Source: Tetradesmus obliquus (lineage: Eukaryota; Chlorophyta; Chlorophyceae; Sphaeropleales; Scenedesmaceae). From it: 64,000 nucleotides of DNA. Under the pieces are notes generated by a model, which saw only the letters and a list, made by a program, of their open reading frames with translations, was not told the DNA's origin and searched no databases. The stretch lies in contig CP126193.1 in assembly GCA_030272155.1 (NCBI GenBank), positions 1,240,001 through 1,304,000 of the forward strand, read 5' to 3'. Every line of letters starts with the position of its first letter. Within the stretch, counting starts at the first letter, position 1. Of the stretch, positions 10,052 through 59,900 are shown piece by piece. The position numbers and the translations under genes are program-made.

Positions 10052-12974
10052 TCACACGCTAGCATCACCAGCACCCACTGCTGCTGGCTGGCCATCCGAC
10101 TGTGCATCCCCACCATCAATACCACTAGTGGTAGTACTACCATCACCAGCAGCACTAGCATCGCCAGCAGCACTAGCAGCAGCAGCAGCAGTTGGCGCAA
10201 CCTGGCGCCAGCCAGCCAGCTTGTCAGCACCCCAACTGTAGCCAGACTTGACTCCGTTGCGTGCTGTTGCTCGCAGCGTGGTGGCCCACTTGTAGTGGAA
10301 CTGCAGCGGCCACGCCACAAAGATGAATCCCCACCAGCAGAAGAAGAACGCGAGCACGTTCTTGTGCGAGTCGATCGCAGGGTACCAGATGTACTCTGCG
10401 AGCTCAGCCACATATGTGCCCTGGGGGTTTAGGTCGTACTGTGTTAAAGCGCCAATGGCCACCATGATCTGCCCAAGCATCAATGCATTTGGCCACCACA
10501 GGTGCACCGGATGCGTGGTCTGGCTGCACGGCAGCAGATCTTTGAACAGCAGGAAGATCATGATTGCCACAATGCAGATGTATGCGGCGCACATGCCGAC
10601 TCCGTTGAAGTCTTTGATGCGGTGGATGTTCTCAGGACCTGACAGGTAGTTCTTGACCTGTGTGAAGCCGCCCCAGGCAAAAGCCATCCACGCATTCTCG
10701 CTGAACCACTCAGAGGGGTTGATGCGCGTGTCTGCGAAGAACTTGTCCATCAGGCCACCCTCTTCAGGCATGCCATAAAAGGCCGCGTCGGGGATGAAGC
10801 CGTACTCCCGGATGATGCTAAACATGGCCAGCGCTTGCAGGTTGCACTGCGGCGCCAGCAGCAGCGCCTCGGTGAACACCAGCAGGCCCACCACTGCAAA
10901 GTAGGCCAGGCCCAGCAGCTGAGGGTAGCTGAAACACAGGCGCGCCGGCTGCTGCTGCTGCTGCTGCTGGTCGGCATCGTCGTCAGGCGGGTCTGCAGTC
11001 AGCGCGGCTGCCGGCTGCTGCTGCAGCGACGGCTGCTTCAGCAGTGACGGCTGCTGCTGCAGTGACTGCTGCTGCTGCTGCAGCGACGTCTGCTGCAGCA
11101 TTGACGGCTGCGGCTGCAGCAGCGACGACTGCTGTAGCAGCAGAGACGGATGCCTCTGCAGAGACTGTATGTATCGCTGCGTCCGCGGCGACTGCTGCCT
11201 CTGCAAGGACTGCTGCCTCAGCTGCAGAGAGTGCTGCCTCTGCAGCACCGCCTTCATCAGCTGATTGCTCTGCTGCTGCTTGAGGCGCTGGTCCCGCTCG
11301 AACAGTGCCTCTGCATCACTCTCCGTACTGCCACCCTGTGCCGCTGCCGCTGCCGCCGCTGCTGCTGCTGCGTCTGCTGGCACTCCAGCAATGTAGTCTT
11401 CCAGGATCTTGCTGCCTTTGTCGGGCTGCTCCTCAGTGACATGCCACAGCATCTGCGCTCGTACAATCGCCCCGACCTTGTTATCAAGCTCAAGCACAAA
11501 GCAGAGCGCCACACTGTTGGTGATGATGCTGATGCGGTCTGTGGTTGCTGCCTCAAACAGAAACAGCACGCCACCAGTCAGCAGCACTGCCAGCGCTACC
11601 AGCAGCTGCAGCACAGGAGTGATCAGCACCAGCGCCCCCTGCAGCTTCGGGAGCTTCTTTTCCGCGGGCACCCAGTATCGCTCGCGGCCGAAAAAAGCCG
11701 GTAAAATCCCGGTGAGGGCCGCGGCGACGGTGCAGAGCTTGATCGCGCGTCGTATTTCGTCGTGTACGGCGATCACGAGCGCGATGAAGGCCATGATGAT
11801 GAAGGAGGTTGGATCGTACTCGTAGCCAATTCTGTAAGGAATGGAAAACACGAGCAGCAGAAGCGCGCAGCATTAATGGCAGTGGGCAGGGCAGCCGGCA
11901 AGCAAGAAGTGTTGGAGGTGGTGGTGGTGATCTACAAACAGCCAGCAGCAGGACACTGAAGCTACACAGACAGAGCCAGCGCCGCCCACCGACAGTGCAC
12001 TGCCACAGCAAGCACAACCTCAGCATGGCCCACCAAGCCAACCCTTAGCACCAAAGCAGTTGACCCTTGCAAGAGTGCATCACAGTCCCCCTGCAGCACC
12101 CTTATTACTGTCTGCCATGTAGTTGCCACATCCTGCTAGCGTAAGTGCTGTCGGTTGAAGACTGGCAGAAACAGGCAAGAGTGCGCAGCCGCCGCTGTAC
12201 GGTAATCCCGCTTGCTGCCCGCAATGCAGTTTCTGCCACATCCCGGACCACTGTCCAATGAAGCTATCCCAAGACAAACCAACCGTTTTGTACACAAAGT
12301 GTTACATCTCAAAGCCCACCTGTGGTACTCCTGGTTGGTGTCCGCGACGTAGTTGCTGCCACGCGCATACATGCCCCAGCCAAACTCCAGGTCAGTGCGG
12401 CGGCGGCGCAGCAGGAACTTGCGGCACTTCTGGTCGTTATCCATGCTGCGGGGGTCAGCAAGCGGCAGCAGCAGGCAGTGACAGTGTTAGATGATGGGGA
12501 GGCACGCAACCGCAGTCTGATTGATTTGCACACATGTCGCCATCCATTTGCAGGCGTTCCAAAACAGGTTGGCTGCTGCGCCGTTAGTGCCCACATGCGC
12601 ACCGACACACCCACATCAACGCAGATCACTGGACAGCCAGCCAGCCAGCCAGCCAGCCAGCCAACCAGCCATATGCTGTCATCAACTCACGTGTCCACGT
12701 CCATCTGCAGGCACTCCGGGATGCTGTCAGGCTCCACATTGCTGTTGTCGTCCGAGTCCCACATGCTCTGCAGGCACTGCGAGTGCTTCGTCTTCTTCTG
12801 CATCACTTTCGCATTCCACTTGGCACCCTTGCCCAAGCTGCCGTGCAGCTGCTCCATCTTTGCTTCTAAGACCTGCGCCCTGTCGGAGACGTTGCAGATC
12901 CTCTGGTATGCGTGGCCCAGCTGCACCCAAAGCCGGCCCTCCTCAGGCCGCTCCACAGGCGCATCACCTGCCAG

Positions 12975-13006
<32 letters not shown>

Positions 13007-13095
13007 GGTTTTGGTGGTGCGATTGGGCAGTACTGCCGCACAGAGCTGCACCCACAGCCGGCCCTCTTCGGGCCGCTCTACAGGCGCATCACCTG

Positions 13096-13130
<35 letters not shown>

Positions 13131-13341
13131 GGTTTCAGTGGTGCGATTGGGCAGTGCTGCCGCACAGAGCTGCACCGACAGCCGGCCCTCCTCAGGCCGC
13201 TCCACAGGCGCATCACCTGCCAGCCAGCAGCAGCAGCAGCAGCAGCAGCAGGGGTTTTGGTGGTGCGATTGGGCAGTACTGCCGCACAGAGCTGCACCCA
13301 CAGCCGGCCCTCTTCGGGCCGCTCTACAGGCGCATCACCTG

Positions 13342-13388
<47 letters not shown>

Positions 13389-15103
13389 GGTTTCAGTGGT
13401 GCGATTGGGCAGTGCTGCCGCACAGAGCTGCACCGACAGCCGGCCCTCCTCGAGCCGCTCCACAGGCGCTTCACCTGCCAGCCAGCAGCAGCAGCAGCAG
13501 CCATGTAGTGTGGGCAACATGCAAGCTGCAACAGCGACAGGCCGTGCTGCACAAAGCATGAGCCAAGCCAGCCATGAGCTCCAGTGGGGCGCTGGGCTGA
13601 TGGCGTGGTTTCTATGCCTTGGTTGGTGATCCGATGATGTTGAGCCATGCGAGCCGCATGTTTGAGCAGCAGTGCTGCAGCAGTTGCGAGGCAGGCGATT
13701 GCAGGCCAAGACAGCAACAGGGGCATGGCTCAATGGATTGCCCTAGCCACTGCTGCTGACATATGAGGTGCTGCACACCAAGCGTGCCATTATTGCTGCC
13801 AGCAGAGCAGCAGGCGCACTTCGCGTGTGCTGCAAGCCGTAACAGCCCGGGATAGTGATGTCAACGCACCTGGGATTTGCTGCGCTAGCAGGACTTGTTG
13901 CTAACCTGGTTACATGCATCATAATGAAGTCTTCCTGTCTGCGCACCTGTGACCGCAGCCTGCCACAGCAGCCCTACCAGCGCCATCTGCAGTAGGATGG
14001 TGAACAGCAGCGACGGCACCACCATGGGCAGCCGGAAGATTCTGCAGCCTGCAGGGCCCGCTGCTGCTGCTGCGCTGTAAGAAGCCACGAGGCTGCCTAC
14101 AGCTGCAGCACAGGACGGCACAAGGCGATGCATGCAGCACACGGCGTCAGCTGCAGTAGGGTCGAATAGTACAAGAGGGTCAGGTGCACGCGTGTTGGGT
14201 GATGATTGAGGGTGCTTGATCAGGCGATATGATGATAGGCTCGGAACAGCAGCAGGAGGCCTCCATGCAGGCGCAAGCAGCACTCTACACCACACACAAA
14301 ACAGCTGTTTATGCATGCACACAATCACAGCTGGGAAACAATTCCGGAACAACCATGCAACCTGTGGCGTCACTGCTCCGCTGAGGCAAACAGTACAACC
14401 CCACCTGCCACCCTCTTCCCTGCATGGCTGAAGGTGCATGTTATAGACTCATACACTTGTAGACCTGCAGATTAACGGGCTTGTCGGGCCTCATTGACCT
14501 ATAAACTTGCAACTACCCTCGCTCTGATGCATGTTACACCGTTGCAGTGCTGTGTTTGCTGTTGCGAATGCGCTCACTTGTGACGTATATGTCGTCAGTG
14601 AGGCTGCTCAGTAGCACCTTGAGCCCACTGCCACATGCCTCTTGGCCACAGTCGCCGCTGCTGCTGCTGGTCTCGCAGCCCATGCCGCTTTTGACACGCA
14701 GCAAGCTGTCAATATCCCCCGAATACATTGGTGACGTGCTGAGGTCTTGGCTGTTCTGCCGCTGCCTCTTCTTCTGCTGCCGCCGCTGCTTCGGTGACAT
14801 TGGCTGCGAGGGCTGCTGCTGCAGCTGCGAGTGTGGCTGCTTGGGCGGCAACGGCTGCGAGTGCTGCTGCTGCAGCTGCGGCTGTGGCTGCTGTGTGTGT
14901 TGCTGTGTTGGCTGGACCGGATGCGAATGGTGCGGCTGCAGCTGCGGTAGAGGCTGCTGCTGCGCAGCGTGACCACTCTGCTGCATTGGTGGCTGGTCAC
15001 GCAATGGCAGGCCATCGTCAGCGGGCGCCTGCTGCTGCTGCTGCTGCTGCTGTTGTGAGCTGCCTTGTGTACTGCCAACCTTGAGCGGACTGCCACCTGA
15101 CAT
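10052..15103 (-). CDS. Multi-pass membrane protein with Gln-rich disordered N-terminus, function unknown
   Basis: Exons: 15103-14578, 14096-13947, 12967-12691, 12445-12320, 11831-10052. All are GT-AG and phases 1, 1, 2, 2 match, giving 952 aa. Exon 1 (residues 1-175) encodes a Gln/Pro/Ser-rich soluble region. Exon 2 supplies the first hydrophobic helix (MVVPSLLFTILLQMALVGLL). Exons 3-4 form a charged loop. The last exon carries about seven further helices, for example TSFIIMAFIALVIAV, LVLITPVLQLLVALAVLLTG and NVLAFFFCWWGFIFVAWPL. They are interrupted near residues 510-650 by a long poly-Ala/Gln insert with many short QQ/LQ repeats. The loop between later helices is rich in Trp, Phe and Asn. 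I do not recognise the family. The acceptor of exon 3 has been copied repeatedly into the preceding intron. Confidence 0.8.
12635..12670. repeat. (CCAG)n microsatellite in an intron
   Basis: Seven to eight tandem CCAG units followed by a variant CCAA, just downstream of the exon 3 donor of the membrane-protein gene. Confidence 0.85.
12968..13500 (-). repeat. Array of four extra copies of an acceptor plus exon edge
   Basis: The intron end and the first ~45 nt of exon 3 (acceptor at 12967) recur with exon-start equivalents at 13092, 13216, 13338 and 13474, a spacing of 122-136 bp. Copies at 13092 and 13338 share TTCGGGCCGCTCTAC and alternate with the other type, so a two-unit higher-order repeat was duplicated. 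CAG tracts between copies vary from 5 to about 16 units. Only the innermost (12967) acceptor joins in frame to the rest of exon 3. Confidence 0.88.
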
Positions 15104-15908
15104 GCTGGACGCCAGCGCGAAGCCTCACATTCTCACCATATTAGGCTGATAATTGCTTGAATTATTCCCTGAGCAGCAAAGGCGAAGCAACAGCAGCAGT
15201 GTCAGGGACAGCAGCAGCCGTGGTGGTTGCTGGGCAGAGGTGCTGGGGGTGGTACTGAAGGCAGCTAACAAGCGCCAGCCGCGACGACTGCCGGCCATAC
15301 TCGTCAAAACTATTCAATAATCTAAAATGAAACATACTGCATCGCTTCAGGCTTCGATAACGCCGCAAAGGAGAGGAGCTGGGTGAGCTTCCTGCAGTGC
15401 TGCCAGTGCCAGCACACCTGCAAGCTGGATGACCGATAGCGACAGTACACACTCCAGGTCAACAGTGTTGTCTCGCAAAACCTTTTTAGCGGCTACAACT
15501 GCGATTCTCCAAGCTGTACACACGGCAGTGCGGCAGTATTCCCTTGCACTGGGTCTCTTCTTGTGAGTTTGGTTCTCAGCACTTACGTGGATCGGCTGAG
15601 TTGCGGTGCACTGTACAGACATGTAATATCATACTGCACCGCATGTACTGAGGCGGAGCGGTGCATCAGGAAGTCAGCGGGAGGCAGAAGGACACTGACA
15701 AGAAGGCCAGCATGAAGACCCATACATGGCTTAGTCACCGGACTATTGATTACTGTTAACGTTTTGAAATCCATGCAAGCAACACAGACGCTCTAAGCGA
15801 ACATCGTCCAATACCCCTATCAAAGAGGTGCCCTCAGAAACGCCACAGCTCGCCGCTGGCCGCACGCAGTGGGATCTATAGATATCGTCTGATCGATTGA
15901 CGGGTGCC
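15104..15908. promoter_or_regulatory. Divergent intergenic region
   Basis: This ~800-bp gap separates the minus-strand membrane-protein gene from the plus-strand peptide gene at 15909, so it should hold both promoters. CTATAGAT at about 15876 is a weak TATA-like candidate for the peptide gene. No other structure was found. Confidence 0.4.
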
Positions 15909-20196: not shown

Positions 20197-20233
<37 letters not shown>

Positions 20234-23146
20234 CAAGAAGAAGGGAAACAGCAGGTGAGCTCAAGCAGTGGGACAGCACAAGGCAGCATGGGGCTCCCCT
20301 GTGATGCTGCAGCATGCACAGGTGCAGAGATGGCGCCCTCACACTCGATTTAGCACTGTAGGCTGATCAGGGTGAAAGGCAGCTGTACCAAGGGACACCA
20401 GCAGCACCAGCAATTGAAACACACGGACCAAGCAGTGGCAGCGCGATGACTCTCAGACACAGCTGCCGGCTGCCGGCTCACCTTGCCGTCGCGCAGGCTG
20501 CTCCTGCGCCGCACCACCACCACCAGCACAGCAGCAGCAGCCATCACTGCAGAGCCCACCACGCCGATCACAATGCCTGCGATCGCGCCGCCAGACAGCT
20601 TGCCACGGTGCTGCTGCTGCTGCTGCTGCTGCTGCGCCTGCAGGGTTGCCAGGTAGTGCTTGCGGCGCTCGCGTGAGGTGTACTGGTAGGAGGGGCCAGC
20701 CAGCTGCCAGATGGGCACCTGCAGCAATTGCGTGGCGGCAGCAGCAGCAGCAGCAGCAGCAGCACATCATGTTTGGTTTTGTTGTGCACGCTGTGTGCTG
20801 TGAAGCAGGGCCTGCGCTGCCTGGTCGTGCCGTTGCACCAGAAAAACCATCAACAATCCAGCATTCCGTTACTCTCCCTCAAGCAGCACACAAGGGACAC
20901 AGCACACAGCACACAGCACCCCCACCTGCTGCCGCTTGCCTCCCGCCGTGCTCACGCACTGCAGGTACTCAAATCACCCAGCAGGCACCCAGCAGGCACC
21001 TAGCAACGCCCAGCACACACCCAGCACATACACATAGCAGCCGCACCTGCTGCCGCTTTCCGCCCGTCGTGCTCACGCACTGCAGGTACTCAAAGCCGTG
21101 CAGCTTCCCCCAACAGCCCCCTGATGCATAACACCAGCATCTCATTACACACTCGCACCTGCTGCTGCTTGCCTCCCGCCGTGCTCACGCACTGCAGCTA
21201 CTCAAATCCGCACACAAGGAACAGCACAAAGCACCCAGCCGCATACATACATGCAGCACCCGCACCTGCTGCCGCTTGCCGCCCGCCGTGCTCACGCACT
21301 GTAGGTACTCACACAAGGGAAAACACAAAGCACCCAGCCGCAGCCAACATACAGCACACCCGCACCTGCTGCCGCTTGCCGCCCGCCGTGCTCACGCACT
21401 GCAGGTACTCACACAAGGGAAAACACAAAGAACCCAGCCGCAGCCAACATACAGCACACCCGCACCTGCTGCCGCTTGCCGCCCGCCGTGCTCACGCACT
21501 GCAGGTACTCACACAAGGGAAAACACAAAGCACCCAGCCGCAGCCAACATACAGCACACCCGCACCTGCTGCCGCTTGCCGCCCGCCGTGCTCACGCACT
21601 GCAGGTACTCACACAAGGGAAATCACAAAGCACCCAGCCGCAGCCAACATACAGCACACCGGCACCTGCTGCCGCTTGCCGCCCGCCGTGCTCACGCACT
21701 GCAGGTACTCACACAAGGGAACACACAAAGCATTCAGCAGCAGCCAACATACAGCACACCCGCACCTGCTGCCGCTTGCAGCCCGCCATGCTCACGCACT
21801 GCAGGTACTCACACAAGGGAAATCACAAAGCACCCAGCCGCAGCCAACATACAGCACACCCGCACCTGCTGCCGCTTGCCGCCCGCCGTGCTCACGCACT
21901 GCAGGTACTCAAAGCCGTGCAGCACGTCCTGCGCCTTGCGGCTGGTGGCAGGCACGGCCCAGGGGCAGGTGAAGCGGGGTGCGTCCAGGCTGATGCCTAT
22001 GGAGCACTTGCAGGATGAGGCCAGGGCTGGCAGGTTGGTGATGATCCAGGCGGGGAAGACACCCTGGGAGGGGAGGGGTGGGGAGGGTTTTGGCGAGCAG
22101 CAGGGTATGGACAGGTTCCAATGGTAGTATTGCTTGCAAATGTATGTGGTTAGCAGGTGGTTTGTCAAGCAAGGCTGCTGGAGCGGAGCATGTCACATGC
22201 TGCATGTGTGTATAAAGAAACGTCAGATTGGGCAAGCACGGGCACAGTTTTACAGAGGATATTAGTGTTGGCTTGTAGCTGCACAACGCCACACATGAAT
22301 GCATGTACTGCACAGAGAATCAACAGTGAAGTGCCAGCTCCGTGCGATGCTGCTTGCAGCGGAACCACCAGCAGCAAGCTGCAGTATGAGACAATTGCGG
22401 CGAGACAGGGACAGAGATAACACCCTGCCAACATTCACTTCATCTAATGCGTTCACATCATGCACACCTGCAGCTCGTTGTTGGAGAGGTCCAGGATGCG
22501 GTGCACGGGAGTGTGCCTGCAGGACACCACCAGCACTTTGTGAGTGTAAGTGTGAAATTGCGCTGCGGGTACTGAAAACACCACCAGCACGCAGCAGGCA
22601 GCACGCAGCACCACAAGGCAGTAAACTCACCGCCGTTGCTGGACACTACAGCAGCACAATGGAGTGCAATGCATCTAAAATGGTGGGCACATGCAGCAGC
22701 AGGCACAGCAGTTGACCTGAACACACAGCTCACACGGGCAGCACAACATTACATTACATTACATTAACACAACATTAATGTAGGTCACAACGATAGCCGT
22801 ACCCCCTGTGCAGGGCAGCACACGCATGCACACCGTCCCCACACACAGCAACGCGCACAGCTCCAACAGCATGCATTACATCCACAGCCTCAGCCACGCG
22901 CTGGCTGCCTCACCCGTCCTTCATAGTGACCATGACAGGCCGCACAGCAGCCAGGCTAGCGAGGCCGGCCGGCACCCCGCCACTGAGCCTGTTGTGGCTC
23001 AGGTTGACCTGCAGCAGCTGGTTGCTGGGTGTTAGGGCATCAGCAAAGGCTGCCAGGCTGCCTGAGAAGCCGTTGTGGGACAGGTCCAGGAAGCTGAGGT
23101 GCGGCGCGGCTGAGGTGACACTGGATGACAGCGGGCCTGCGGCGGC

Positions 23147-29055: not shown

Positions 29056-32000
29056 CTAGTGCGCAGTTGCAGCCATGATGCGCGACAGGTCAGCAAGCAT
29101 GTCAGACACCAGCTGCTGCCCCCCGCCCCCAAGCTCAAGTGTGCAGGGCTCACTCCTGGGCCCGGAAGCATACACCACCACCAGCCAACGCTTGTCACCC
29201 CACGAGCCTTTCTCCTGCTTCAACTTCAGGATGTCTGCGTACCGCACAAGCACCCTGCTGCCAACACTCAGCAACACGTCACCTGTCTGTGATCCTCCAG
29301 TATCACCCGCAGCAGCTGCCGGCAACAGCTGGCCGCTGTGTACCGTGCTAGTGACGCCTGCTGTGCCAGGCACCGCTGCAGTCCCCTGCAGCTGCTGCTG
29401 CTGCACTGCAATTGCCTTAGGTGCTTCGCTGTCATCATAGTCAAATGCCAGCATGCTGCTGCATAGGTACAGGTTGCCCGGCTTGTTGCGCACTGTGCCA
29501 TACTTGAGGCAAGGATGCACACGGATCACTCTCTCATTGTGAGGCAGGCCCAGATCCAGTGCAGCTGCAAGCAAGCAGAAGAGCAACATACACACAGTCT
29601 GTTGATTGCTGCAGCCTAGTGCATGAAGAGCAGTATAGGAGGCACTGACGGCTTCTTGCTGCAACTGCAGCAGCAACAAGGCATGCCACGCCGTGGCATG
29701 CTTGCATGTATTGCGTCCTATTCTACGCCAGTACCCAAGGTTTGCAGGCTAGCCTAGCTTGCTGGTTGTGATTCAAACTTGCCACAGCTGCTGCAACTAC
29801 GACTCACCTACGGTCTCCTTGCAGCACCTCAGGTTGCGGTCCAGTGCCGTGTTGCTGCCCATCGCTGCCAGCCGCACAGCATCGTGAAGCTTGTCGCGCA
29901 CAGCAGCACACTCAAAGCCGTAAAACACACGCAAGCTGCGGTCCGGCTGCATTGTCAGGGCCAGCGCGTCATGCCCCTTGTGATAGACCTTGTCCAGCCT
30001 CGCCACATCAGCCAGCGGCATCAGCAGCGTCGTGTCTGCGGCCTGTGCTGCAGCAGCAGCTGCTGCTGCTGGTGCAGTAGCGGGTGCTGATGCTGATGAT
30101 TGCGGCTGGGCAGTGGCACTGCTACCGCTGCTGCTGCCGCTGCCACCTGATGGCGGCAGCAGTGATGACTTCCACCAAGACTTTGTTGCAAGTCCGCTTG
30201 AGGAGCTGCTGCTGCCAGTTGCTCTGGCCGCTGCCGGGTTTGCTGACGCTGATGGTGGTGGTGGTGGTGGTGGTGGCGCTGTCGCTGGCAGACCTGCCTT
30301 CATGGCTCCTGCCTGCGCTTGCTTGACAGCCTTTGCAACACGCTTAGCAATGGCATCAGCATCGGCACTGCTGCTTGTGCTGCCACAGTCAACCAGGAGA
30401 TCTGTGAATGCCAAGTAGTTGTTGGACAGGTAGATGCACCCTGAAACAGCACCAGGCACACCGCTGCTGCTGCTGCTGCTGCCCAGGGCCGCAAGAAGAG
30501 GCTCGTTGCCTGCGCCAATGCCAGCTGCTGACCCAGCAGTGGTCGAGCATGCAGCATACACCTGAACAGCCTCGGCAGCTGACAGCCCAAACAGCAGCTG
30601 CATGATGCTGCCACCAGCTTTGTGCAGCTGCTGCTGCACAAAGAGCTGTGCCTCCAGGTCGCATGCCCTCTGCCGCAGGCAGCGCAGAATGTCCAGCTGT
30701 GTTGGCTGCTGCATGGGCTGCGCTGTGTTCTGCGCCTGCACAAAACGCTGCGTCAGCTGTGCTGTAGGAAGCAGCAGCATCTGAAGCACGGACCTGGCAT
30801 GCACAGCAGCAGCGGCAATGCCCGCTACTGTTGATGTTGCCAGTGCTGCTGCCGCATTCTGCTGTTGTCCTGCAAGCATCATCTCAGACACTTGTGTCTG
30901 CACCACTGCTAGCAGCTGCTGCAGCAGCACTGCGTGGTGCATCTGCAGTGGCTGCGGCAGCAGCAGCCAGCTGCCATGCCTGCCGTGCACACTGCTGCCT
31001 GCTTGGCACAATGCCACCTTGACCACTGCAGCTAGCAGCGCATTCCAATATGCCATCACCAGCTGCCGCTGGACAGCAGGGCAGCAGGAACTGCAACACA
31101 GGGAGCAGCAGCAACACAAGGTAGTTGCCAATCTGGGCACAATCTTAAACCCTCATCACAAAGGTTACAACCTGTCCAGGGCCTGTCCTGACATATCCTC
31201 AAACAAACTGTAACTTCAGCATTGACTGGTGATAGCAGTGAGCAAGGTGCATCTCAACACGACTGCAGACACTCACCTCTCCAGTGAAGCCATCTCTGCC
31301 AACAATGGTCCCAGCACCAGCTGCGCTGCTGGACTTGCCAGCTGCTCGGCGGCTGCATGCTTTGCAGCTGCGTCAGCAATGGCAGCACCACTGGATGTGC
31401 TTTTGCTCACTGCTGCGGCTGATGCTGTTGCTGCAGCAGCAGCTACCTGTGGCCCACACACGCTGAGAAGCGAGGCCAGCAGGGCAATGCTGTGGCCTTG
31501 CAGCTGCTCTGTGACAGCCAGCAGCAGCTGCTGCATCAGGCTACTTATTGCATGTGATGATTCTGCACTCTTCTGTTTGATGTCAGCAGATGTGGCTGCA
31601 TGCAGCTCGTCAGATGCCTGCAAGGGCTGGTGGTGCTGCTGCTGATTCTGCTGCCTGTTGCTCACAGTCGCGTCAAGCTCCGCTGCCGCCTCATCTGCTG
31701 TGGCTGTGCCGCTGCTTCGTGTCAGCACATTGGGCTGTAGCTGGGCTTCTGCTGGCGCAAGGTCTGTGTCTGCTGGCTCTTCATCTTCTGTCAGCAGCAT
31801 CTCACTCACATCACTGTCACCTGCACCATCAGCGTCGTCCTCACCACTGCTGCTGCTGCTGCTGCTGGAATCATCCGCGTTGTGCACCTCCTCGATTCTG
31901 CCATTGCTGCTAATGCCATGCGGCAGTGCATTGCTGCGCAGCAGGCAGCCGTGACGCCCACCCACGGACTCCACACAGGCAGCGACACTGCCTGCTACCA

Positions 32001-37300: not shown

Positions 37301-40300
37301 ACCTTGTCCTCACCTGAGGCCCCCAATCATTGCAGCGTCCAACAGCACCTGCATGTAGTACATGGCTGGCAGCACTGTGCTGCTGCTGCCCTGTGCGGTT
37401 GCAGCACAGCTCGAAACAGCCCTTGGCAAGAGCCGCCTGCAGCTCAGCAGCTGCAGCACTGCCTCTGCTGCTGGGCTTGGCCCATGCTGTGCCTGCTTGC
37501 CTTGTGCGTGCAGCACCGCTGCCTGCTGTTGAAGCTGCAGCACCTGCTCCCAAGCTGGGCCCATACTGCTGCTACTGCTGCCACCATTGCACGCTTCTAA
37601 AGCTGACACTCCCGTGCTCTGCTGTAGCCTGGATGGTTGCTGCTGCTGGTGCTGGCGATTCTGGTACCGTGATGTGTACAGCAGCTCCCCAGATCCGTCA
37701 GCTGAGGAGAAAGCCTCAGACCCTGTCATTGATGTGCAAGTGCTGCTACATGCACTGCTGCTGGCACTGCTGCTAACGAGCACGCATGCAGTGGTTGACC
37801 GCCGCCCGCTCGCTTTGCTGCTTGGGTGCGCACCAGCGTCAGTGTGCTGCTGCAGCTGCAGTAGCTTGCTGTTTTCATGTACTGCTGGGCTGGATGCATT
37901 TCCATAAGCATGCACAGCTGGCAGGGTCCAAGAGCACTCTTGAGATGATGCCACGTGGTCTGCTGTAGCCCTCATGTGCAGGCGCTGACCCACTGGCACG
38001 CCCTTAGCGGCATCAGCAGCAGCAGTAGCAGCAGCACGGCTGGCTGCACCTTCTGCCGCATCAACAGCAGCCTGGTACGCGGCTGCGGAGTCAGCTAGGG
38101 TGCCTAACTGCCACAGCCTCCACACCGCAGACACAAGCGAAACAGCCGCATCCAGCTCAGCAGCGACTGCTGCTCCTGCTGCACCGGCGCCTGCTGGTGC
38201 ATCTTCTTCTGACGATGTGCTTGATGGCCCGCTGCTGCAGACACTGTGTGCTGCTACAACTGCTGCTGCCCTGGCCAGCGGCTGTGGCAGGTGCATCTGC
38301 TGCCCTTGGGCTTCCAGCGCCTCCAGTAGCGCCTTCACAGGCATGTCAGCTGCTAGTGCTGCAGCTGCAGCATCCTGTGGCTGCAGCAGCTGCTCTACAC
38401 TGATTGAGGCATCTACAAACAGCTCACCCACCTCAGCCCTGCCCTGGGTGCAGCTGCTGCTGCCTGTACATGGATTGAAGACGGCAATAGGTTGCTGACA
38501 CTGCTGCTCGATCTGCGTGCTTGTGCCAGGCAAGGCAACTTTGGTGCGCGCTATGCTAGCTGCTGTCCCTGAAACTGCAGAACATTGCATGGCATCTGCT
38601 ACAAAGTCTGACAATGAGTCTTGAATCGCAGGCATGGCCAACCCTTGGCTTCTGCTGGCTGCTGCATGCTTGCCAGCAGTGCAGTTATGGCCAGCCACTG
38701 GCCCATAGAGGGGCAGGCGCAGCTGCAGCACATAGTTGTCAGCGCTGGCAGCGTCCGCAGCAGCACTGCCAGGGCTATGAGGGCTGTAGAACTGGTGGCG
38801 CTGCTGCTGGTGTTGCTCTGCTTCCTGCACTGCCTGCTGGAGGTCGTTGATGTGTATACTGACCTGGCCTAGGCAGGGATCACTTATATGGGCGGGCCTG
38901 CTGTTGGTGCTGCTGCTCTGAGCAAGGTTGGTGAACCAGTCGAGGGTGCTGTATGTGCTGGTGCTGCTGTGCACCTGTGAGTAGCAGCACCAGCACATCC
39001 AAGAGAGCATCGTCAGCATGGCCTAGCCAGAAACCTGATGCATACTCTGCTTCTGCAGCTGGTACTTGAACAATAGGTAATGTTGAAGGTCTGCAGTGTC
39101 ACACAGCAAGTACTTGTATACAATGACAATGCAACGTGTGTACCTGCATGTGCACTGCTGTCAGGATAGTAGGCAACAACAACCCGCCTCTTACCTGCAG
39201 TCGCAGTAATGCATCTCTGTTGGCCACATGAAGCTGCATGACAGCATCCCACATGGGCTGGCTGCACTGCTCAACAATATTGGTGTGCTGCACCTGGGGA
39301 CCAACAGCAGGCTGCGGCAATCCTGCCCAACTGCAATTTGCGGCTGTACTAGCTGCTGCTGCTGGTGTTGATGTGGCATCAGCATTGCCAAGGGAGGGCC
39401 AGGTCAGTAGCGCCAAAGGCCCGGACGCGCAAAGCGTATGTGACTGGTTGCTTCTGTTGTAAGGATCAGGGCTGGTGCTGTCGGTGTCTGGCGCTGTCCC
39501 AGCATTGTTCTTCAGCAGCACCACACAGTAAGGGCTGTGCACGTTAGGCTCTTGTAAGATTCCACAGAAACAGCTGTTTGTCGACAGAGAAGCACAGAAA
39601 GCAAGAAGATAAGTGACCACCATGGTGAGCACAGTGCTTGGGTGCTACTCAACAGCATGTAGGGTAGCCACTCTCAAGCTGATGTGAAATAACATCTTGC
39701 TGCATACTTGTATGGCTACAACTGCCTGGCCTGCTGCAGCGTTCCCCAGGCAAGCGTGTATACTACCTGACGCTAACAACAGCACTAACCTGAAGCACCC
39801 GCTACTGCTTTTCTGGGTGGATGAACCCAGTGAGGCACCCTGCACCTGCAGCTGAACCTGGGCGCTGTATGCTGGCAACTGCTGCAGCTGCCACAGCTGC
39901 TCCTGCAAGCACTGCCAAGAGTGATACAACCATGCTTGGTAGCCTTCTGCTGAACAGAAGTCGGCAGGGCTTAGTACACCAGCAGACCCAGCAGTGCCTG
40001 CAGGACATGCTGCCAGTGGTGCTGCAACTGCTGCGCCATGGTGCTGTGGCAAGTGCTGTCTGCTGCATTGCTGGTGCAGGCCCTGCAGCTGCGTGACGAC
40101 GGAAAGCAGGGAGCAACTGCTGCTGTGCTGCGCACTCCACAATCCCTGCAAACAACAGGGAAAACATCATTCACTTATGCCACTGCAGGTTGCTGACGTG
40201 CATTGCAGTGCTGCCATACACTTAGCCAGAGTCACAACTGTGCAGCTGTTGCTGTCTAAATCAACCACATCGCCTTTTGCCTGGGGTCGCACTCACTGCA

Positions 40301-48152: not shown

Positions 48153-48209
<57 letters not shown>

Positions 48210-49351: not shown

Positions 49352-49385
<34 letters not shown>

Positions 49386-50928
49386 GCACACATGTGCAGC
49401 AGGAGACGTGAATGGCTGCAGCAGCACGAGACAATGTAGCAGGAAAGGATGAACCAGCAAGCTGCTCTCACGCGCTTACGCTGCAAGTGATGCAGGCCGT
49501 ATGCTTGCTGCAAGCATGCGCAGCAGCACACCAAGCGTTTGCGCTCCTGCTGTTGCGCATAATCTTGCAACCGCATGCACACAACGTAACCCAGCCTTGC
49601 CTGGCTGATCTTGTACTGCACAGTCCCGCTGACCTTGCTGACCCATCCTGACACAACACGCATACCCCCATCAATCACACTCCCAGCAAAGCTGCACACG
49701 CCAGACCTCCCTGACGCCTGCAGCGACACAAACCGCAGCCGCCAGCTGCAGCAGCAGCAGCAGCAGCAGCAGCGGCAGCAGCAGCAGCAGCAGCAGCAGC
49801 GCACCTGCAGGTCCACCTGCTCCTCCTCGGGCTCCTCAGCAGCCCATGCGTCATACTCATCAGTGCCTGGCCACACCAGCTTGCCTGTGGACTCGTCCAG
49901 CATCAGCGGCAGGCCATGCTCCTCAGCCTGGCCCAGCAGCCATTCCTGCTGCTCAGGGCTGAGGCTGTCGTTGGCACAGGCCTGCGGAAGCAGCACAAAT
50001 TCCAAACAGTGCAGCGCAGCCAACAGCAGCAGTAGCAGCAGCAGCATCAGCGACAAGCCTTGCTCCTCAGCCTGGCCCAGCAGCCATTCTTGCTGCTCAG
50101 GGCTGAGGCTGTCGTTGGCACAGGCCTGTAGAAGCAGCACAAATAAGAGTGGCATTGAGCGATTCCAAAGAGTGCAGCGCAGCCAGCAGCAGCAGCAGCA
50201 GCAGCAGCCTCAGCGGCAGGCCGTGCTCCTCTGCCTGGCCCAGCAGCCACTCTTGCTGCTCAGGGCTGAGGCTTTCGTTGGCATAGGCCTGCAGGGAGGG
50301 GTTGGTAGCATGTATGCAGCAAGAAAGCAGTGGCGTTGAGCAATACCGAAGAGTGCACAGCAGCCAGCAGCAGAAGCCGGCAGATATTGCAGAGACCGAG
50401 GATTAGGCACCCCACCCTACCCTCATTGGCCCTGGCACATGTACTCTGACAGCTGTACAGCAGCGCACAGCATACATGCGGAGCCGCCCACACCCACTCA
50501 CGTGCGCAAGCTGCAGCAGCGTCATTTGCTCCTGCTCCTCTCCCTCTTGCTGCCCCTGGCCCCCTGCTGCTGCTGCTGCATCCTCATCTTCATCCTCATC
50601 ATCACTGCTGTCTTCATCTGTGTCGACCAGCTCCTGTGGCAGCCAGCTGGCCATTTCCAGCAGCACCATTTCTGGCTGGTCCATCACCTCAGCAGCAGCC
50701 TCAGGGGACAACCCTGCAGGGAATGAGGTTGGGTGGAGAGAATGTTGACAGAGTCATTGCATTCAGATGCATTTGGGCAGGCTGGCAACAGTTCCTAACA
50801 GGACACATCCAACTGAGCTCGTCCAAAGTAAAGGTTGACTAGACGTCAGAGAATTACACCCTTCAGAAAGGAAGAGGGGTGTGAGAGGTATGCTGTGAAT
50901 GGCAGGCGCATATAGCAGCAGCAGCAGC

Positions 50929-50977
<49 letters not shown>

Positions 50978-53900
50978 CTCTCACCTCCCCCACCCGTGGT
51001 CAGCGCCTCTTCAATGCGCTCCCTGAACATGTTGGCATCAGCAACACCCTTCAGCAGCGCTGCCATCTCAGCCATGTCTTCCGACAGCTCGGCTTCCTCC
51101 TCATCCTCATCCTGCTGCTGCTGCTGGCTGCTGCTGCCTGCAGCACCCAGCAGCGGTTGATCTACGGCCGAGAGTGCTGCTACGTCTGTGACTGCTGCTG
51201 CTGCAGTGCCGGCTGCAAGCTGCTGCTGCTGCATGCGTATCTGCTCCTCATCCTCCTCTGCTGCTGTGTCAATGCCCGCCCTATCTAGCAGTGCCGCGCT
51301 CTCGCGGCTGACGCGCTGCAATGAGACAGACAGGCACAAGAAGGCAGCAGCAACGCAGGCAGCACAGATTAATTCAGCCTTGAACGTGTGCGACTGCCCA
51401 AGCAGCAAGAAGGTGAAGGGGTAGACAAGGAGTAAGCACACAAAGTGGCGATCAGGCAGGCAGGCAGGCAGGCAGGGCCGCCTGCAGGCACTAGTATCCT
51501 CCGGCCAACATACATTTGTGCTTCATCACATATAAGCCGAATGTCCGTAAAACACCAAGCGCCTCTGCTCAGCACTCAATGCACCGCTATCATTGCAGAA
51601 TATTCAAACCGCAGCCGGCTGCCTCACCTCGCTGCGGCGCGGCTTGCCCCGCATAGCCACCATCAGCCGCTGCATGATCTCCGGCGACGGCCGCAGCCCC
51701 TGGGTTTCAGCAGCCTCCAAAACCGCGTCCGCAAACACCGGCGCCCTAAACCGCAGGCACATGTCCGCCAGCTGCTCGTACTGCTGCAGTACAAACTCCC
51801 GGCTGTACTGCTGCCCTGTACTGCCATCCACCGCACTCGACTGCAGCAGCACTGACAGGCGGGCTGCAACAGCTGCTGCAGCTGCAGGGCTGCGCTCTGC
51901 CTGTGCGCCTGCTGCTAGGGTGAGCACGTCTGCTGGGGTGATGGTGCCTCCGCAGATCTCTGCTGCTCGTACAACGTCCATGGCTATGTCCATGCCAGCC
52001 ACTAAGTTGGCCTCATCAGTGTCGATCTGCTGTGCCTCCATCATCACCAGCTGGCTGTAGCCCTGCGCAAGTTTGAAAGCAAAGGAAAAGGGTGTACAAA
52101 GGTCAAGAATGCAGCATTGTTAGGTTGTGAAGATGTGCATGTGACGTGCTTCTGGCATCACCAGCTGGCTGTAGCACTGCGCAACGCCAAGGGAGACGGT
52201 AACAGGGTGAGAGCGCTGTAGTGTTACCTGGGAGGGCGAGCATTCGGGCGTGTTTCAGCTCTGCACAGTCGCACAGTCGCAAGCAAGCAAGCGAGCCAGA
52301 AGGCGTAGACAGCCGCGCACACTTACATGCATACACACTTCAACGCAACCAAGCACGCATGATCGCCACCATGTAAGGAGACGCATATGCATGGCTGCAT
52401 GCACCTGCAGGTGTTCTTGTATCAATGCCCAAAGCCACCCCCTCAGCCCCAGCAAGCAACCATGCATATAAATGGCAGTGTGTACGCAGTGCATGGCCGC
52501 ACCTCCTGCAGGTGCTCGGTGCCGTTGCCCAGGGCCATGCCCTCAGCCTCCCGCTCCATGGCCCGCCACGCCTTGTCATCAAGCTCGCCCTCCTTGGCGG
52601 CTGGGGCCTCGTCATCTGCAATGCAGTACACAGGGTTCCTTAAGGTTTAGCTGAGATATCTGGTTTTTTGTGGTTCAGTGGGGTTGCGCCACGCCTTGTC
52701 ATCAAGCTCGCCCTCCTTGGCGGCTGGGGCCTCGTCATCTGCAATGCAATACGCAGAGTTTGTAGGTTTAGCTGAAACATGTGGTTTTTGTGGTTGAGTG
52801 GGGTTATGCCTTGACGTCAAGCTCGCCCTCCTTGAGGGGTGGCGCCTCATCATCTGCAGCACACAGGGTTTGAAGTTTAGTTGGGGTTCGGGGCTCAGCA
52901 TTGAGTTGAATATTGCTGTGCAGTGGGTCACGCCGTGCTTTGTCATCACGCTCGCCCTCCTTGAGGGGTGGCGCCTCATCATCTGCAGCACACAGGGCTT
53001 GAAGTTTAGTTGGGGTTCGGGGCTCAGCATTGAGTTGAATATTGCTGTGCAGTGGGTCACGCCGTGCTTTGTCATCACGCTCGCCCTCCTTGAGGGGTGG
53101 CGCCTCATAATCTGCAGCACACAGGGTTGAGATTCCGTAGGTGTCATGGCACGGCACATCGACATGCAATTCAGGCCGCAGGGTCAGAGCTCAGCACAGC
53201 ATGCATATGTGTGTCTGCACATGCTGCTGCTGCTGCACAACCCACCTTCCTCCTCCTCCTCCTCCATTTCATCGCCCACGCCAGGCAGCAGTGTGGCAAA
53301 GCCTGTGGTGACGTCCTCATCACCAACGTTCAAAATGGCGGCAGTGCCCTGAGCGGCAGCAGCAGCAGCAGGTAGCGCTACCTCAGCAAGCAGCATTTTG
53401 CATGCATCACGTCACAGGACTTGTGTGCTTATATGACTTTAAACAAGGGGCACAAGCACTTCAGCCAGTATGATAGTGCTAGTACCACAACACTTGCAGC
53501 TGCCGCACAAATTACACGCAAACAACCACCCCGTACAACCCTCTGACTCCAACTGTCAAACCCCCGCCCTCACCTCGTCCAGCATACGCGCTCCATCACG
53601 GCCTCAAAGTTGACGCCCATCATGGCCTTGAGCCCAGCCACGCCGTACACCCGTCGCCATCATCCCTCACACCACAACCTCTGCCCGCATACATGCCTCT
53701 GAAAATGCACTGATGCTCTTTCGCCAAGTCGCAATGCAAGTACATTACCAACTCGTGAACGCCACCAGCCCACAGCCTGGAACCCTCCTCTTCGCCTCAC
53801 TTACAATTCTAAACGCAAAAACAATGTGTGCTCACCTCGTCCAGCATGCGCGCCTCCATGACTGCCTCAAAGTTGACGCCCATCATGGCCTTGAGCCCCG

Positions 53901-56900
53901 CCACGCCGTACTGGTCGTCGGTGGCGTCCAGCGCGTCCAGCGCGGAGCTGCCCAGCAGGAACTGCTCAGCGCCCATCACCTCGCGCCCGGTGGGCTCCGT
54001 GGACAGCTCGTAGCGCTCGTCGATGCTCTGCGGGTGTGGTGGTGGCACAAGGACAACAGTTGCAGATGAAAAATTGCATGTGAACAAGAGGAGGCAGGAG
54101 ACAGTGGGCTGGCTCCATAGACAGCTCGTAGCGCTCGTCGATGCTCTGCGGCTGGGTTGCAGGTGAGAAAAATGTGAGCGCAGAAGCACATACCGGCAAG
54201 CGTAACAGATTGGCAAGCACAATCAGCCGGCAGGGGTGCTTCGTCAGGATACGGCAAGCCTTGCCGTATGGCTGAGCCATGCAGTAAAACACAGTGCAGA
54301 CGCTGCCACACATGCATATGCATAGGCAACCAACACATACACGCAAGGTACAATAATACGGGTTTGCCTTCAGGGGTACAAGGGATGTTGAATCAGGTTG
54401 TGGCCACATAGCGTAGCAGCCACATCATACTGGTGCCAGTACCAATGCATCAGCAGGCAGCAACTTGGACAAAACATGACTACAACAAGCACACGAAGCA
54501 TAGACATGAACCTGGGGCAGAAAGCTCGTGTAGTGATACAAGCAGTGTTATCCTGCGGTTGAACAGTATCCAACAATGTGCCTTCAGGGGTACAAGGGAT
54601 GTTGAATCAGTTTGTGGCCGCATAGCGTAGCAGCCACATCATACTGGTGCCAGTACCAATGCATCAGCAGGCAGCAACTTACAAAGCACAACACTACAAC
54701 AAGCACACCAAGCAGAGAAAAGAACCTGATACATAATGCTTCGGCCACAACATACAGCAGTGATCCTTCAACCAACACATGCCTTCAGGGGTACAAGGGT
54801 TTTTGAATCAGTTTGTGGCCGCATAGCGTAGCAGCCACATCATACTGGTGCCAGTACCAGAGCATCAGCAGGCAGCATTGTTGCTCAGATCCGTCCGATA
54901 AACAAACGCAAACAAAGTTCCAGTCACTCAGTCACTCAACCAGCCTTGCAACAGCAAGCGAGCATCAAGACAAAGTCCGACTGCAGACACACCACACGCC
55001 TGATCTGCCCCAGCATGCCATGTACACACGCTGCATGCCAGCATTTCCACACTCACCCAGATCTCTCTGTAGAAGCCCTTGGTCCCCTTGCGCTTGGCGC
55101 CAGCAGCAGCAGGCTTGGCTGCGGTCTTCCTGCCTGCCGTCGCACGCAGCGTAGTCACCTGCGCCTGCAGCACGTTGAACGGCAGGCGCGCACGCGCAGC
55201 CTGGCAGCAGCGGCGGCGGCAGTGGCAGTGGCCGTGGGCAGACGCGTCAGTCGCAGCTGCAGCATGTGTGCGGTAGGAATGCAGTTGGTTCAAACGATTT
55301 GTATAACGCGTGCGCCTGGAGATGGGCAACTGCGGGCGCCGCAGCAACATTACGAGGTAGCTCAAAATTGCAGCCTACAAGCTGCCCAACACGAATATAT
55401 GTCATCAATCATAGTTGCATGATGCAGCACCACCCACCACCCGCACCCCACCTTGATCAGTGCTGTCAGCTCTGGCCGCTTCATGCCTGCTGCATCAGTT
55501 GTGCCGCGCGCTGTGGCCTCTGCACGCAGCTCCTTCACGGTGCACTTTGACACGGGCACCACCAGGCCGTCATCATCCACAACGCAGCGCCCGCGGCCAA
55601 TGGCTATGCCATTGATGTACCTGCGCGCAGCAAAAGCAGCAGCAAAAGGATGAACACACATGTTACCCTACAGGAAAGGCACTGCTGACCATCAGTAAGC
55701 AGTGCCATCGTCCACCACGCAGCCCCCGCGGCCAATGGCTATCCCGTTGATGTGCCTGCACGGCAGCGGCAGCACACAGAGGCTTAGATACATGACTATC
55801 AATGATAAGCGGCAGTGAAGGTTGCTGATGCACAGCGACAGCTTGTAGGTAGTGCTGTCAGAATGGGAGTTAGACTCGTATGTGATGTCCACTGCCACGG
55901 CCGCGCCAAGCAGCATACAACATGCTGAATAAAGCATGCACGGCACGGCTAGTGCACCAGTTGCTGCGCGTGCTCCTGCAAGATCCCCCCAGACACGCCC
56001 AATGGCATGTCAGCAGATTTGCAAGCCAAGCAGCCACACATACGCATCACCCAGCTAGCGACACGCATGCAGTGTGTGAGCAAACACGCCAATTCCCCAC
56101 CAGCTGGAAAGCCAAAGCCAGCAGCAACCAGCAGACTCCGCTCAACTCACTCGATCTCTACGTCGGCCGCGCTCTCATTCGCCTCGCGTGCCTCAGCGCG
56201 GCTGGCCATGCCCTCCAGGTGCCCCAGCACCCAGCGGCTGAGCAGGCTGCGGCCCTGGCCATCACTCGACAGCGAGCCAGGCGGCAGCCTGCAGGAGGGA
56301 CATGCGGTGACCATTGAGCAGCAGCAGCAGCAGCAGGAGCAGCGGCAGCAGCAGTAGAGTGTGTGCGTTGGCCATCACTGTTCATGATGTCGCGACACCA
56401 CATCCTGCCCATGCACGAGCAATGTTGCTGCTGCCGTGCGTCCCTGTATTAAAGGCCGCCACCGCCACCACCACACCATGCTGCCACTTGTCCTGCAACG
56501 CATGCGGATTCCGTTGCCACTGTCTACCCTTGTTTTATACCCTTTCCAGATGCTCTGCCTTCACACCTGCAGCTGTCCTCGCTCATGTACACCAGCAGCT
56601 GCAGTGCTGCTGCATGCCCTGCTAGCCCATGCGCGCTCTGTTCCTGTTGCCTCTGCCCTCTGCACACTTCCACCACCACCCAGCCGCGCACCTGCAGCTG
56701 TCCTCGCTCATGTACACCAGCAGCTGCAGCAGGTCTATGTCCTAACCACCATGCAGGCTGCATAGCTGCGGCGTCTACTCCGAATACTGCCCACCAGCGC
56801 ACCTGCAGCTGTCCTCGCTCATGTACACCAGCAGCTGCAGCAGGTCCACCGGCATGTCGCGCTCACACAGCAGCGACAGCAGCCCAGACAGAGCAGCAGG

Positions 56901-59900
56901 GTCCAGCAGCCTGCAGCCCATGGCGCCTGCGGCAGCAGCAGGGGGCACACGAGGGCAGTGAAAGCTTTAGGCTTGATGAGCATTGCAGACAGTGGCAAGC
57001 TGCGTGCCGATTTGAATAGCTGTGCAAAGAAAAGGCGCGCGGCGAGACCAGACAAGACAGGGACGTGCAAGCATTGCGGCTTGACAGCCCAGAAGCCCGC
57101 AGCTCTGCATGTAAATTCAACACAAACGCCGCACCTGCCATGTTGCGCATGCTCTTGACTGCCGCCATGGCGCTGCGTGCGTCGCGCAGCACCACGTGGC
57201 CCTCGGCCTCCAGCTTGAAGGTGAACTTGTCCGGCCGCACGCCAGACTGCAGCATGCGGGGCCGCGTCATGGAGAAGCTGCGGCAGCAGCAACGCAGCAA
57301 GGGATAAGAACGTGGGGCAATTATTTTTTGTAACAGATCACATGAGCTAGGACGGCAAGACAGAAGGCAACATGAGCTAGGCCATGATGGTGGACAGTGA
57401 CTTAAGCAGTGCAGCAGCGTCTGCAGCACACCGCAATAGCAGCTGCATCATGCCGTGTGCAGAGCGCTGGACACACCCGCAACTAAGCACAGTGTGACAA
57501 CTGGTCAAACATAACACCGTGTCAGTTTGACTCACTCTGTGACCAGCGTGTCGGAGGGCTCCTCGCCCTCGCCCACCACCTGCCGCAGCGTCTGCACCAG
57601 TCCTGCAAGCAATGCATTGAAGCTGCCAGCATCCCTGCCCCAGCCTCTGCTGCCAGCAGCATCAACCAGCCCTGCAGCATCTGTTGCATTGCCTGCGGCT
57701 GCATACGCTGCCACCACGTAGTTCACGTGGCGGGCTTCTGGGGTGAAGCCGTGACGGGAGCGTGCTGTCTCTAGCACCTTGAGCGCAGCGTCCTGCAAGC
57801 AGCAGCATGGATGCAGGATGGTTGCAGGATTCGGTTTTAAACCAGGGAGGTGAGGATGACAACACCAGCTGCTTCAAAGCAGAGGCACCCTGAGGCAATG
57901 GTTGCCCTAACAATAACACGCTGCTGCAGTTGCAGCACTCGCTCTTGCCAGGAAGCACCACAGGCATCACCGCTGCGCCATCACGCTCTGCGCTCCTGCA
58001 CCCTGCTGCTGTCGCTGGACACCCCACTGCCCCCAACCAGCACGCCATATCCAGACCCATACACCCTCCCTGCTGTGCCTCAGCTGCACAAGACACTACT
58101 CACACCGTGCATACTTTACAGACTTGTACATCCTAGCTTGCAACAGCAAACAGCAGCAGTCCTCCTGCTCTCACCGTTTGCTCCGTGTCACACAGCGCCT
58201 TGATGTATGCCTCCCCACATCATCATCTGAACCTGAGCTGTCAGTTACCAAACACCTTGCATCATGTGTCTTTGCTGATGCAGTACTGCTTCAGTACTCA
58301 CCGCTTGCTCTGTGTCGCACAGCGCCTTGATGTACGCCTCCCCCACATCCTCATCCAGCTGCAGCCCCGCCCCCAGCCCCTCACGCACAGCAGCAACAGC
58401 ATCAGCAGCAAAGCCCTTGGCAGCAAGCAGCCTGCATAGCACTGCCCAGGGGGCCTGCAGCTCTGCGCCTGTGCCTGGCAGGGCCTCGTATAAGGCCTTT
58501 GCTACTGCTAAATCTGGCGGGGATAGCTCCATGTGTGAGTAGATGAGTGCTGCGTAGCTCTCAGGCAGTAGCTGCACGCCTGCAGCAGAGAAAAAGGTGA
58601 GCCGGGTGCAGCAGGACAGGTGGCAGTGGCGCGAAAGTGACGGGGTGTGTGCGGGTGTGCATCACTGGCCAGAGCAACTATGTATGGGTGGAAAGCTGCT
58701 TGTGCGGTGATGAGACGCAGCCACGCCAGCCATGCTTGACTTGCTGATGGCACACTTGGTCAGCATCGCTACAAATCGCCTGTGCATTCACTTCCAGTGG
58801 CTACACCGGACCTGTACACAGCCCATGCAGTTGCACACAGGTGTGTATGTGCTGTCAACCCTGCCGCTGCTGCTGCTCTGCTGCTGCCGCTGTTGCCATC
58901 ACACGTGCTGCTGCCACAACCTCCACTGCTGCTGCTGCTGCTCACCAGCGTCTGTGGCCCGTGCTGTCACTGCCAGTGCCTCAGGCAGCTCGCCAGCCTT
59001 CAGGTAGGAGCACAGCAGCACGTGGTATGCGCGCGGCCCTGGCGGCAGCCCTGCTGCCACCATGGATGTGAACGCTGCCTCTGCTGCTGAGGTGTTGCCC
59101 TCCTTGGCTGCGCTGTGTAGCCGCCTGCAAGCAGAGCAGGTAGCAGAAGTGATGGCAAGGTGTGCCAACGATCAGGAGGCAGATGCCTGTGGACCCTGCA
59201 TGGAGCATGTGGTACAGCGCTGCGCTGCAAGCAACAGCTGTGTCACAGCCAGTCAACGCCTCTTACCGCACCCAAAGTCAAGCATACCATGCCGCGCATT
59301 GCAGTGCTGCTACCATTCGGGCACCGAATCAGCAGCAGCTGCTGCTGCTGCTGCTGCTGCTGATGCGATTGCTGACCACCTCGCACCTATGGTAGGGGAA
59401 GCGCCGCCTGTCCTCCTCGCCTGCGCCGCTTGCTGCTGCCTCTGCCCAAGAACCAGGCCCCTCAGCAGGCACCAGCAGCCCTGCCTGCATGGCCCGCTGC
59501 TCCTCATCATAGTCACCACCCCATTCAAAGTCCCCAGCCCCGCTGCTTTGCTGTAGCTGCTGGTCAACTTGCTGGTCAACCTGCTGCAGCTCAGCCTTGG
59601 TCTTGCGGCCCCGCTTTTTCTTGCCCGAGTCAGCGTCAGCGTCTGCTGCTGCTGCTAGCTGTGGTAGCTCAGTGTCTGCTGCGTCTTCTGCTGCTGTTTT
59701 AGGCTTGCGGCCGCGGCGCTTGGGCACAACAGCGTCATCGTCTGCTGCATATGCGGCTGTCAGCATCCATCAACGACGACGCATGACGGTGCAGAACAGA
59801 TACATCAAGCAAACTTCAGCTATGAAGTGCTGGTTTGTAGGGCAGAGCTGACTGGTGCTCTGCCCAGCTGCTGTTGTTGCTGGCAGCAGCATCACTGAGA

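Follow-up and report, generated by a model that had tools for sequence, protein, structure and literature searches.

Copies of exon edges in introns of the green alga Tetradesmus obliquus, probably from local tandem-type duplication

Introns of the green alga Tetradesmus obliquus frequently contain copies of the edge of a neighbouring exon, in most cases with the splice dinucleotide still in place. We describe this pattern in a 64,000-nucleotide stretch of one assembly (the window, positions 1240001-1304000 of contig CP126193.1, called C3 here, in genome G000; 104,662,953 bases in 17 contigs) and in further DNA from the same assembly. The pattern is real and frequent: it is a local duplication that lengthens introns, and in its working it resembles the tandem genomic duplication reported for individual genes. 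What can be read directly is the presence and spacing of the copies, their occurrence on three chromosomes, the use of the outer edge in the proteins compared and two cases at modelled stop codons.

Exon-edge copies in fourteen introns of the window

The initial annotation of the window described fourteen introns, seven at donor and seven at acceptor sites, into which a segment straddling the splice site had been copied. Its range, 12967..58302, contains fourteen introns that fit the description, and in each of them an exon edge recurs at least once inside the intron together with a splice-like site. Arrays were located by blastn self-comparison and Tandem Repeats Finder (TRF), reading of the minus strand and mapping of junctions; array positions at 21866 and 37314 were obtained by arithmetic, and their GT or AG was checked afterwards. 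The gene names membrane protein, LRR (leucine-rich repeat), Munc13-like and PTAC3-like are those of that annotation. Two annotated proteins serve for comparison in the list that follows: P0125 (OEZ86_002357), which is annotated on this genome and is our own-genome control, and P0002, a T. obliquus protein.

12919..13501, minus strand: acceptor-type array in the membrane protein gene; real exon 5' edge at 12967, copies at 13092, 13216, 13338 and 13474, with CAG before each
20884..21923, minus strand: donor-type array in the LRR gene; real exon 3' edge at 21866, copies every ~100 bp, older ones down to 20884; skipped by P0125
23067..23389, minus strand: acceptor-type, LRR gene; real edge at 23136, copies at 23260 and 23361; skipped by P0125
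24433..24844, minus strand: donor-type, LRR gene; real edge at 24783, copies at 24682, 24581 and 24439; skipped by P0125
36491..37332, minus strand: donor-type 42-bp array in the Munc13-like gene; real edge at 37314, 20 units (TRF)
49898..50377, minus strand: acceptor-type, PTAC3-like gene; real edge at 49981, copies at 50125 and 50288; skipped by P0002
52042..52184, minus strand: acceptor-type, PTAC3-like gene; real edge at 52062, copy at 52176; skipped by P0002
52405..52550, minus strand: donor-type, weak; real edge at 52503, diverged copy ending at 52405; skipped by P0002
52564..53130, minus strand: acceptor-type array; real edge at 52615, copies at 52738, 52853, 52982 and 53111; P0002 has one extra DDEAPAAKEGELDDKAW
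53569..53911, minus strand: donor-type, period 262; real edge at 53836, copy at 53574 with a 1-base deletion; skipped by P0002
53993..54154, minus strand: acceptor-type; real edge at 54027, copy at 54145; skipped by P0002
55571..55767, minus strand: acceptor-type; real edge at 55620, copy at 55755; skipped by P0002
56564..56846, minus strand: donor-type; real edge at 56803 (set by hand), copies at 56692 and 56567, whose exon-like parts match it without a difference over 44 and 38 nt
58170..58355, minus strand: donor-type; real edge at 58302, copy at 58175, lacking one base; the edge occurs once in P0001

Spacings are about 98-163 bp with outliers of 42 and 262, as had been reported, and what was read of the fourteen introns is consistent with the further statement that a whole exon is never duplicated. 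The weakest of the fourteen is the one at 52503, which blastn self-comparison missed. There 34 of 46 aligned positions are identical, and the copy scores 40 against a mean of -5.0 (sd 8.2) for random segments, none of 2000 scoring as high.

Another intron of the PTAC3-like gene contains a three-copy repeat at 54365-54877, with a unit of ~214 bp and a 98-nt block at 94% identity.

Extent and anatomy on three chromosomes

The pattern is widespread, with 41 curated splice-junction families on three chromosomes in 304 kb of sampled DNA (the window, a further 100 kb of C3, 100 kb of C1 and 40 kb of C8). When every sampled block was compared with itself by blastn, 63 local repeat families emerged, the weak copy at 52405 not being counted among them. 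We classed these by hand as 44 at a splice edge, 2 at a stop codon, 7 inside coding segments or between them, and 10 that are noncoding or unclear. One family, at C1 sample 37099-37530, was moved to the unclear class because its repeat adjoins a modelled exon edge and the edge is absent from the copies. The 44 splice-edge families consist of the 41 curated ones, the array at 12967 and two acceptor-type families on C1 whose copies have lost the AG.

Each curated family pairs a confident splice edge with intronic copies (25 donor-type and 16 acceptor-type families, 92 copies). This list was selected for copies bearing GT (GC once) or AG, and the sites in it are 65 GT, 1 GC and 26 AG. Arrays occur in 34 of the 250 introns between confident exons, one of the 34 holding two, and six of the 41 families were left unplaced where the models break their intron. 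Exon edges were taken from reading frames and gene models, together with annotated proteins mapped by tblastn for two window genes and one C8 gene; in the list of 41, the edges at 21866, 49981, 56803 and C8 1627 were set by hand. The gene models come from an ab initio hidden Markov model (HMM) trained on the sample, which fuses neighbouring genes and sometimes calls copies exons.

For 40 families, the 42-bp array being left out, we aligned the real edge with its nearest copy. The period is 86-144 bp in 33 of these pairs, made up of ~49 nt of exon and 68 nt of remainder. On the exon side, identity is ~0.9 up to 30 nt from the edge and 0.7-0.8 between 30 and 40 nt, with a median extent of 50.5 nt for donors and 53 nt for acceptors. 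In a control of 72 unrelated junction pairs, exon-side identity is at most 0.12 beyond the first 6 nt, and because of this difference chance likeness between real edges and copies is excluded. On the intron side, identity is 0.86-0.91 over the first 6 nt and then 0.24-0.53. Intron similarity extends for at least 71 nt in 16 pairs, for 22-47 nt in 6 and for at most 20 nt in 18.

Some arrays are plain tandem repeats across the whole unit, among them the 100-bp array at 21866 and most copies in a C8 ribosomal protein gene that we take to be uL11-like. The longest arrays are the 20 units of 42 bp, at least eight copies of the 21866 edge, and five copies in the uL11-like gene. In these last five (C8 sample 30025-30718), the copy nearest the exon is the most similar.

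The suggestion that introns are lengthened in this way is borne out by their median length, which is 444.5 nt with copies and 294.5 nt without; once copies are removed, the former falls to 276 nt. A mobile spacer was considered as the source of the repeats and rejected. The three spacer-containing queries, from the three families tested, each matched their own locus only (simple repeats were skipped and the counts are lower bounds), so that these families do not show the dispersed copies of an introner or transposable element.

Reading frame and use of the copies

The initial annotation also held that the outermost splice site is the only one that keeps the reading frame. This is true of 37 of 40 families and 83 of 86 copies and fails for three copies, which are in frame and open; 75 of the 86 would introduce an in-frame stop if used in place of the outer site. 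The test, from which the 21866 array was dropped for want of a phase, addresses retention up to the copy rather than mini-exons set off by an additional splice site. With three of 86 in frame and open, the copies do not behave as an ordinary coding tandem repeat.

Annotated proteins agree with use of the outer edge. P0125 omits the copies of three LRR-gene families, P0002 omits those at 49981, 52062, 52503, 53836, 54027 and 55620, and P0005 omits those at five junctions of a gene on C8 that a separate search named RlmL-like. P0021, a protein of a relative and transcript-derived judging by its record name only, crosses one intron of the RlmL-like gene using the outer edge. In all, P0125, P0002 and P0005 use the outer junction wherever they were compared, the sole exception being one extra 18-residue copy at 52615 in P0002. 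In the window this comparison covers two genes, the edges at 12967 and 37314 lying outside it. The edge at 56803 is present once in P0001, and P0002 begins inside it. Comparison with the proteins of relatives revealed no new intron.

Because one annotated T. obliquus protein contains a copy, occasional use of the copies is possible. That they are in general facultative mini-exons, sometimes included in frame and thus partly coding, seems to us quite improbable. The extra 18 residues at 52615 in P0002, whose protein cluster has 13 member sequences, and the third-position bias described below would suit such exons. Yet retention up to the copy leaves an open, in-frame sequence in only three of 86 cases, frameshifts occur through 1-base deletions, and one copy has TAG for TAC. 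None is included in P0125 or P0005 at the junctions compared, and the five copies of a conserved stretch in the uL11-like gene also speak against it. The extra copy at 52615 bears on an assembly artefact as well, in which two haplotypes would have been laid in tandem. The copies do differ as alleles do, but arrays reach 5 to 20 copies and the 52615 copy recurs in a protein annotated on a different contig (of 7,559,670 bases), so we regard such an artefact as very unlikely.

Probable duplication across the edges of coding segments

The copies had been attributed to a genome-wide process that lengthens introns and seeds arrays of decoy or alternative splice sites. Neither specificity for splice sites nor a role in seeding such arrays is supported, and we do not accept a splice-directed process. 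The splice-centred reading is weakened by the same pattern at two modelled stop codons; in addition, at least two acceptor-type copies have lost their AG, and the compared proteins skip the copies but for the one in P0002. The first stop-codon case lies at C1 sample 87351-87648, where the last 72 nt of a modelled coding sequence, stop codon included, recur in the 3' flank. The homologous block stops at the TGA at C1 87422, both copies have the same translation including the stop, and all four differences between them are at third positions; in the 60 nt past the block, 24 of 60 positions are identical without gaps. The second family (C3 sample 111511-111803) straddles a stop codon at 111557-111559, again a gene end taken from the model only, and its 3' flanks are still similar.

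Recurrent local duplication of tandem type, tolerated where the outer edge preserves the original coding sequence, is probably the origin of the copies, although we advance it with some reserve. The mechanism that we infer is as follows. Segments of ~86-144 bp would often be duplicated locally in this genome. A duplication wholly inside coding sequence would usually wreck the gene, whereas one across the edge of a coding segment, be it donor, acceptor or stop codon, would be tolerated because the outermost edge still yields an intact message, the extra copy coming to sit in the intron or 3' flank. Copies could then multiply by exchange between repeats, giving longer introns, and would afterwards decay slowly. 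The coding-like differences between copies may have arisen in ancestors that were real exons of diverged haplotypes and were later joined by unequal exchange.

Several observations weigh against this account, and they concern the anatomy of the units, their placement and the way in which the copies diverge. Adjacent direct copies that cross a boundary are present, but the crossing unit is clear only in part of the pairs, because 18 of the 40 lose intron similarity within 20 nt even though their exon parts are ~90% identical. In a sensitive local comparison of edge-only pairs (real-copy and copy-copy), residual intron similarity reached p < 0.05 in only 8 of 33.

Placement is also less even than duplication at random would give. 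If units fell at random on the modelled introns, 35% of those touching an intron would cross a single junction and 64% would be inside it; straddling families (44 of 63 at splice edges by hand count) far exceed this. The exon share of the unit is likewise narrower than uniform (mean 0.42, sd 0.13, Kolmogorov-Smirnov (KS) p 0.0004). Copies confined to an intron are hard to detect, which may account for some of the straddling excess, and limits of at least 20 nt of exon and at least 45 nt of remainder, chosen post hoc, remove the misfit in exon share (KS p 0.36 clipped; 3 of 33 outside). Both the excess over the geometric expectation and the narrow position of the junction inside the unit are what one would look for if duplication were aimed at splice junctions, for instance through breakage or template switching linked to transcription or to chromatin at exon edges. 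Such targeting is compatible with recurrent local duplication, but the same pattern at modelled stop codons and the ability of viability and detectability limits to account for the junction position make it an unlikely addition.

The divergence of the copies is puzzling. Real edges and copies differ at 27, 25 and 104 first, second and third codon positions (~665 sites each, 39 families), and copies differ among themselves at 33, 35 and 84 (~503 sites each). The real-copy counts are 24, 22 and 79 without four families whose copies may be real exons and which were dropped by hand (C1 38501, C1 69755, C8 13812 and C8 25356). A simple model of neutral fossils, which by our own estimate predicts at most about 1:1:1.7 by position, is rejected by the observed 27/25/104. 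We discount gene conversion from exon to copy on the reasoning that it would have wiped out the differences at third positions. When differences are polarised in 14 arrays the bias is milder: 28/26/45 are private to copies, 0/3/8 private to the real edge and 5/5/12 shared. A badly aligned copy at C1 22952 contributes up to 7/6/8 of these counts, and we do not rest the case on them.

The two parts of the same units also change at different rates. In 18 copy-copy pairs with long intron similarity, the 35 nt of exon-like sequence have 49 substitutions in 627 sites and 2 gaps, and the intron-like part has 146 in 742 and 23 gaps. The rates are 0.078 and 0.197 per site, that is, 2.5 times less change and roughly tenfold fewer insertions and deletions in the exon-like part. 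Without the recent 100-bp array they are 0.104 and 0.237, and 12 of 13 pairs have the lower rate in the exon-like part. Such a difference is not expected among neutral copies of one duplication, given equal age of the two parts, which assumes duplication of the whole unit. The substitution gap holds away from gaps in the alignment (36 of 397 exon-like against 76 of 369 intron-like sites, 12 pairs), and in these 12 pairs neither rates by base, nor trinucleotide entropy, which is equal, nor nearness to gaps explains the slower change.

Earlier divergence, in part as coding sequence in other haplotypes, could explain change that is both slow and biased to third positions and is the source that we favour; weak selection on the copies is a less likely source of the slow exon-like change. 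Single-base deletions in copies and the milder polarised bias count against strong coding constraint. A crude comparison of proteins between strains gave 18 differences in 711 residues for P0002 and 38 in 364 for P0005, with 14 in 538 for the own-genome control P0125. This barely helps the haplotype step, since of the two proteins P0005 alone rises above the background given by the control.

The slow change of the exon-like parts, with its near absence of gaps and its persistence away from gaps at equal trinucleotide entropy, would also suit copies that are selected and act in splicing, for example as decoys for U1 or U2 or in regulated unproductive splicing, the unit then being exon-like sequence plus splice signal. 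Intact splice dinucleotides in most mapped copies point the same way, though the curated list was selected for them. The excess of third-position differences, both real-copy and copy-copy, would not be expected under constraint at the RNA level, the stop codon shows the same pattern and some copies have lost the dinucleotide, and we find a role in splicing rather unlikely. We are similarly doubtful, and slightly more so, that exon-edge copies every ~120 nt are kept by selection as a decoy or reserve for splicing in a large share of introns.

Relation to known systems

No standard feature type was thought to describe the pattern. This was true only in part. A potato gene is known in which a duplication spans an intron-exon boundary (PMC4974935); for dense, intron-resident copies of exon edges, our literature search returned no description among the matches listed. 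The potato RdRp case falls under a model in which introns are gained by tandem genomic duplication (PMC4974935, which cites Rogers 1989 and Hellsten 2011 for it). As in that model, the segment crosses an intron-exon boundary and inherits its splice signals from the parent structure. There a new intron is created, whereas here an existing intron is lengthened and the coding sequence is apparently unchanged; and in contrast to a single potato gene, the pattern here recurs in ~1/7 of modelled introns. Internal gene duplication (Gao and Lynch 2009, as cited in the potato paper) is similar in that duplications within genes are frequent and can carry splice sites, but here the exon edge alone is copied and it resides in the intron.

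Tandem repeats enriched near intron-exon junctions in Chlamydomonas and Volvox likewise lie in introns of green algae and towards their ends, but the motifs are short, for example dinucleotide GT/AC, and the accessible passages of PMC3887541 mention neither exon-edge copies nor "splice". Introners, in the part of PMC9860276 at hand, also alter introns genome-wide by copying; they are dispersed elements, whereas the copies described here are local and the three tested spacer queries unique. Mean intron length is given as 462 bp in T. obliquus against 230-302 bp in four other green algae in the excerpted text of PMC5966456.

If the sampled density holds, the genome would contain thousands of natural cases in which at least two near-identical splice sites compete within ~120 nt. 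The outer site must win each of these competitions, which would make the introns a test bed for the choice of splice sites. The arrays may also record earlier exon states and the growth of introns. Gene predictors may take copies for exons, as our HMM models did. How slowly the exon-like copies change is what most deserves specialist attention.

Other features of the window

Searches of the window for Rfam families and transfer RNA genes, and of 1 kb for plasmid sequence, gave no matches. Outside confident exons, 6305-6545 holds a complete tandem pair (119 bp, 79.5% identity), and an inverted repeat of ~32 bp, 97% identical, is formed by 4032-4062 and 5404-5435. Runs of CAG/CTG are frequent across the window, and the modelled acceptor consensus is CTGCAG.

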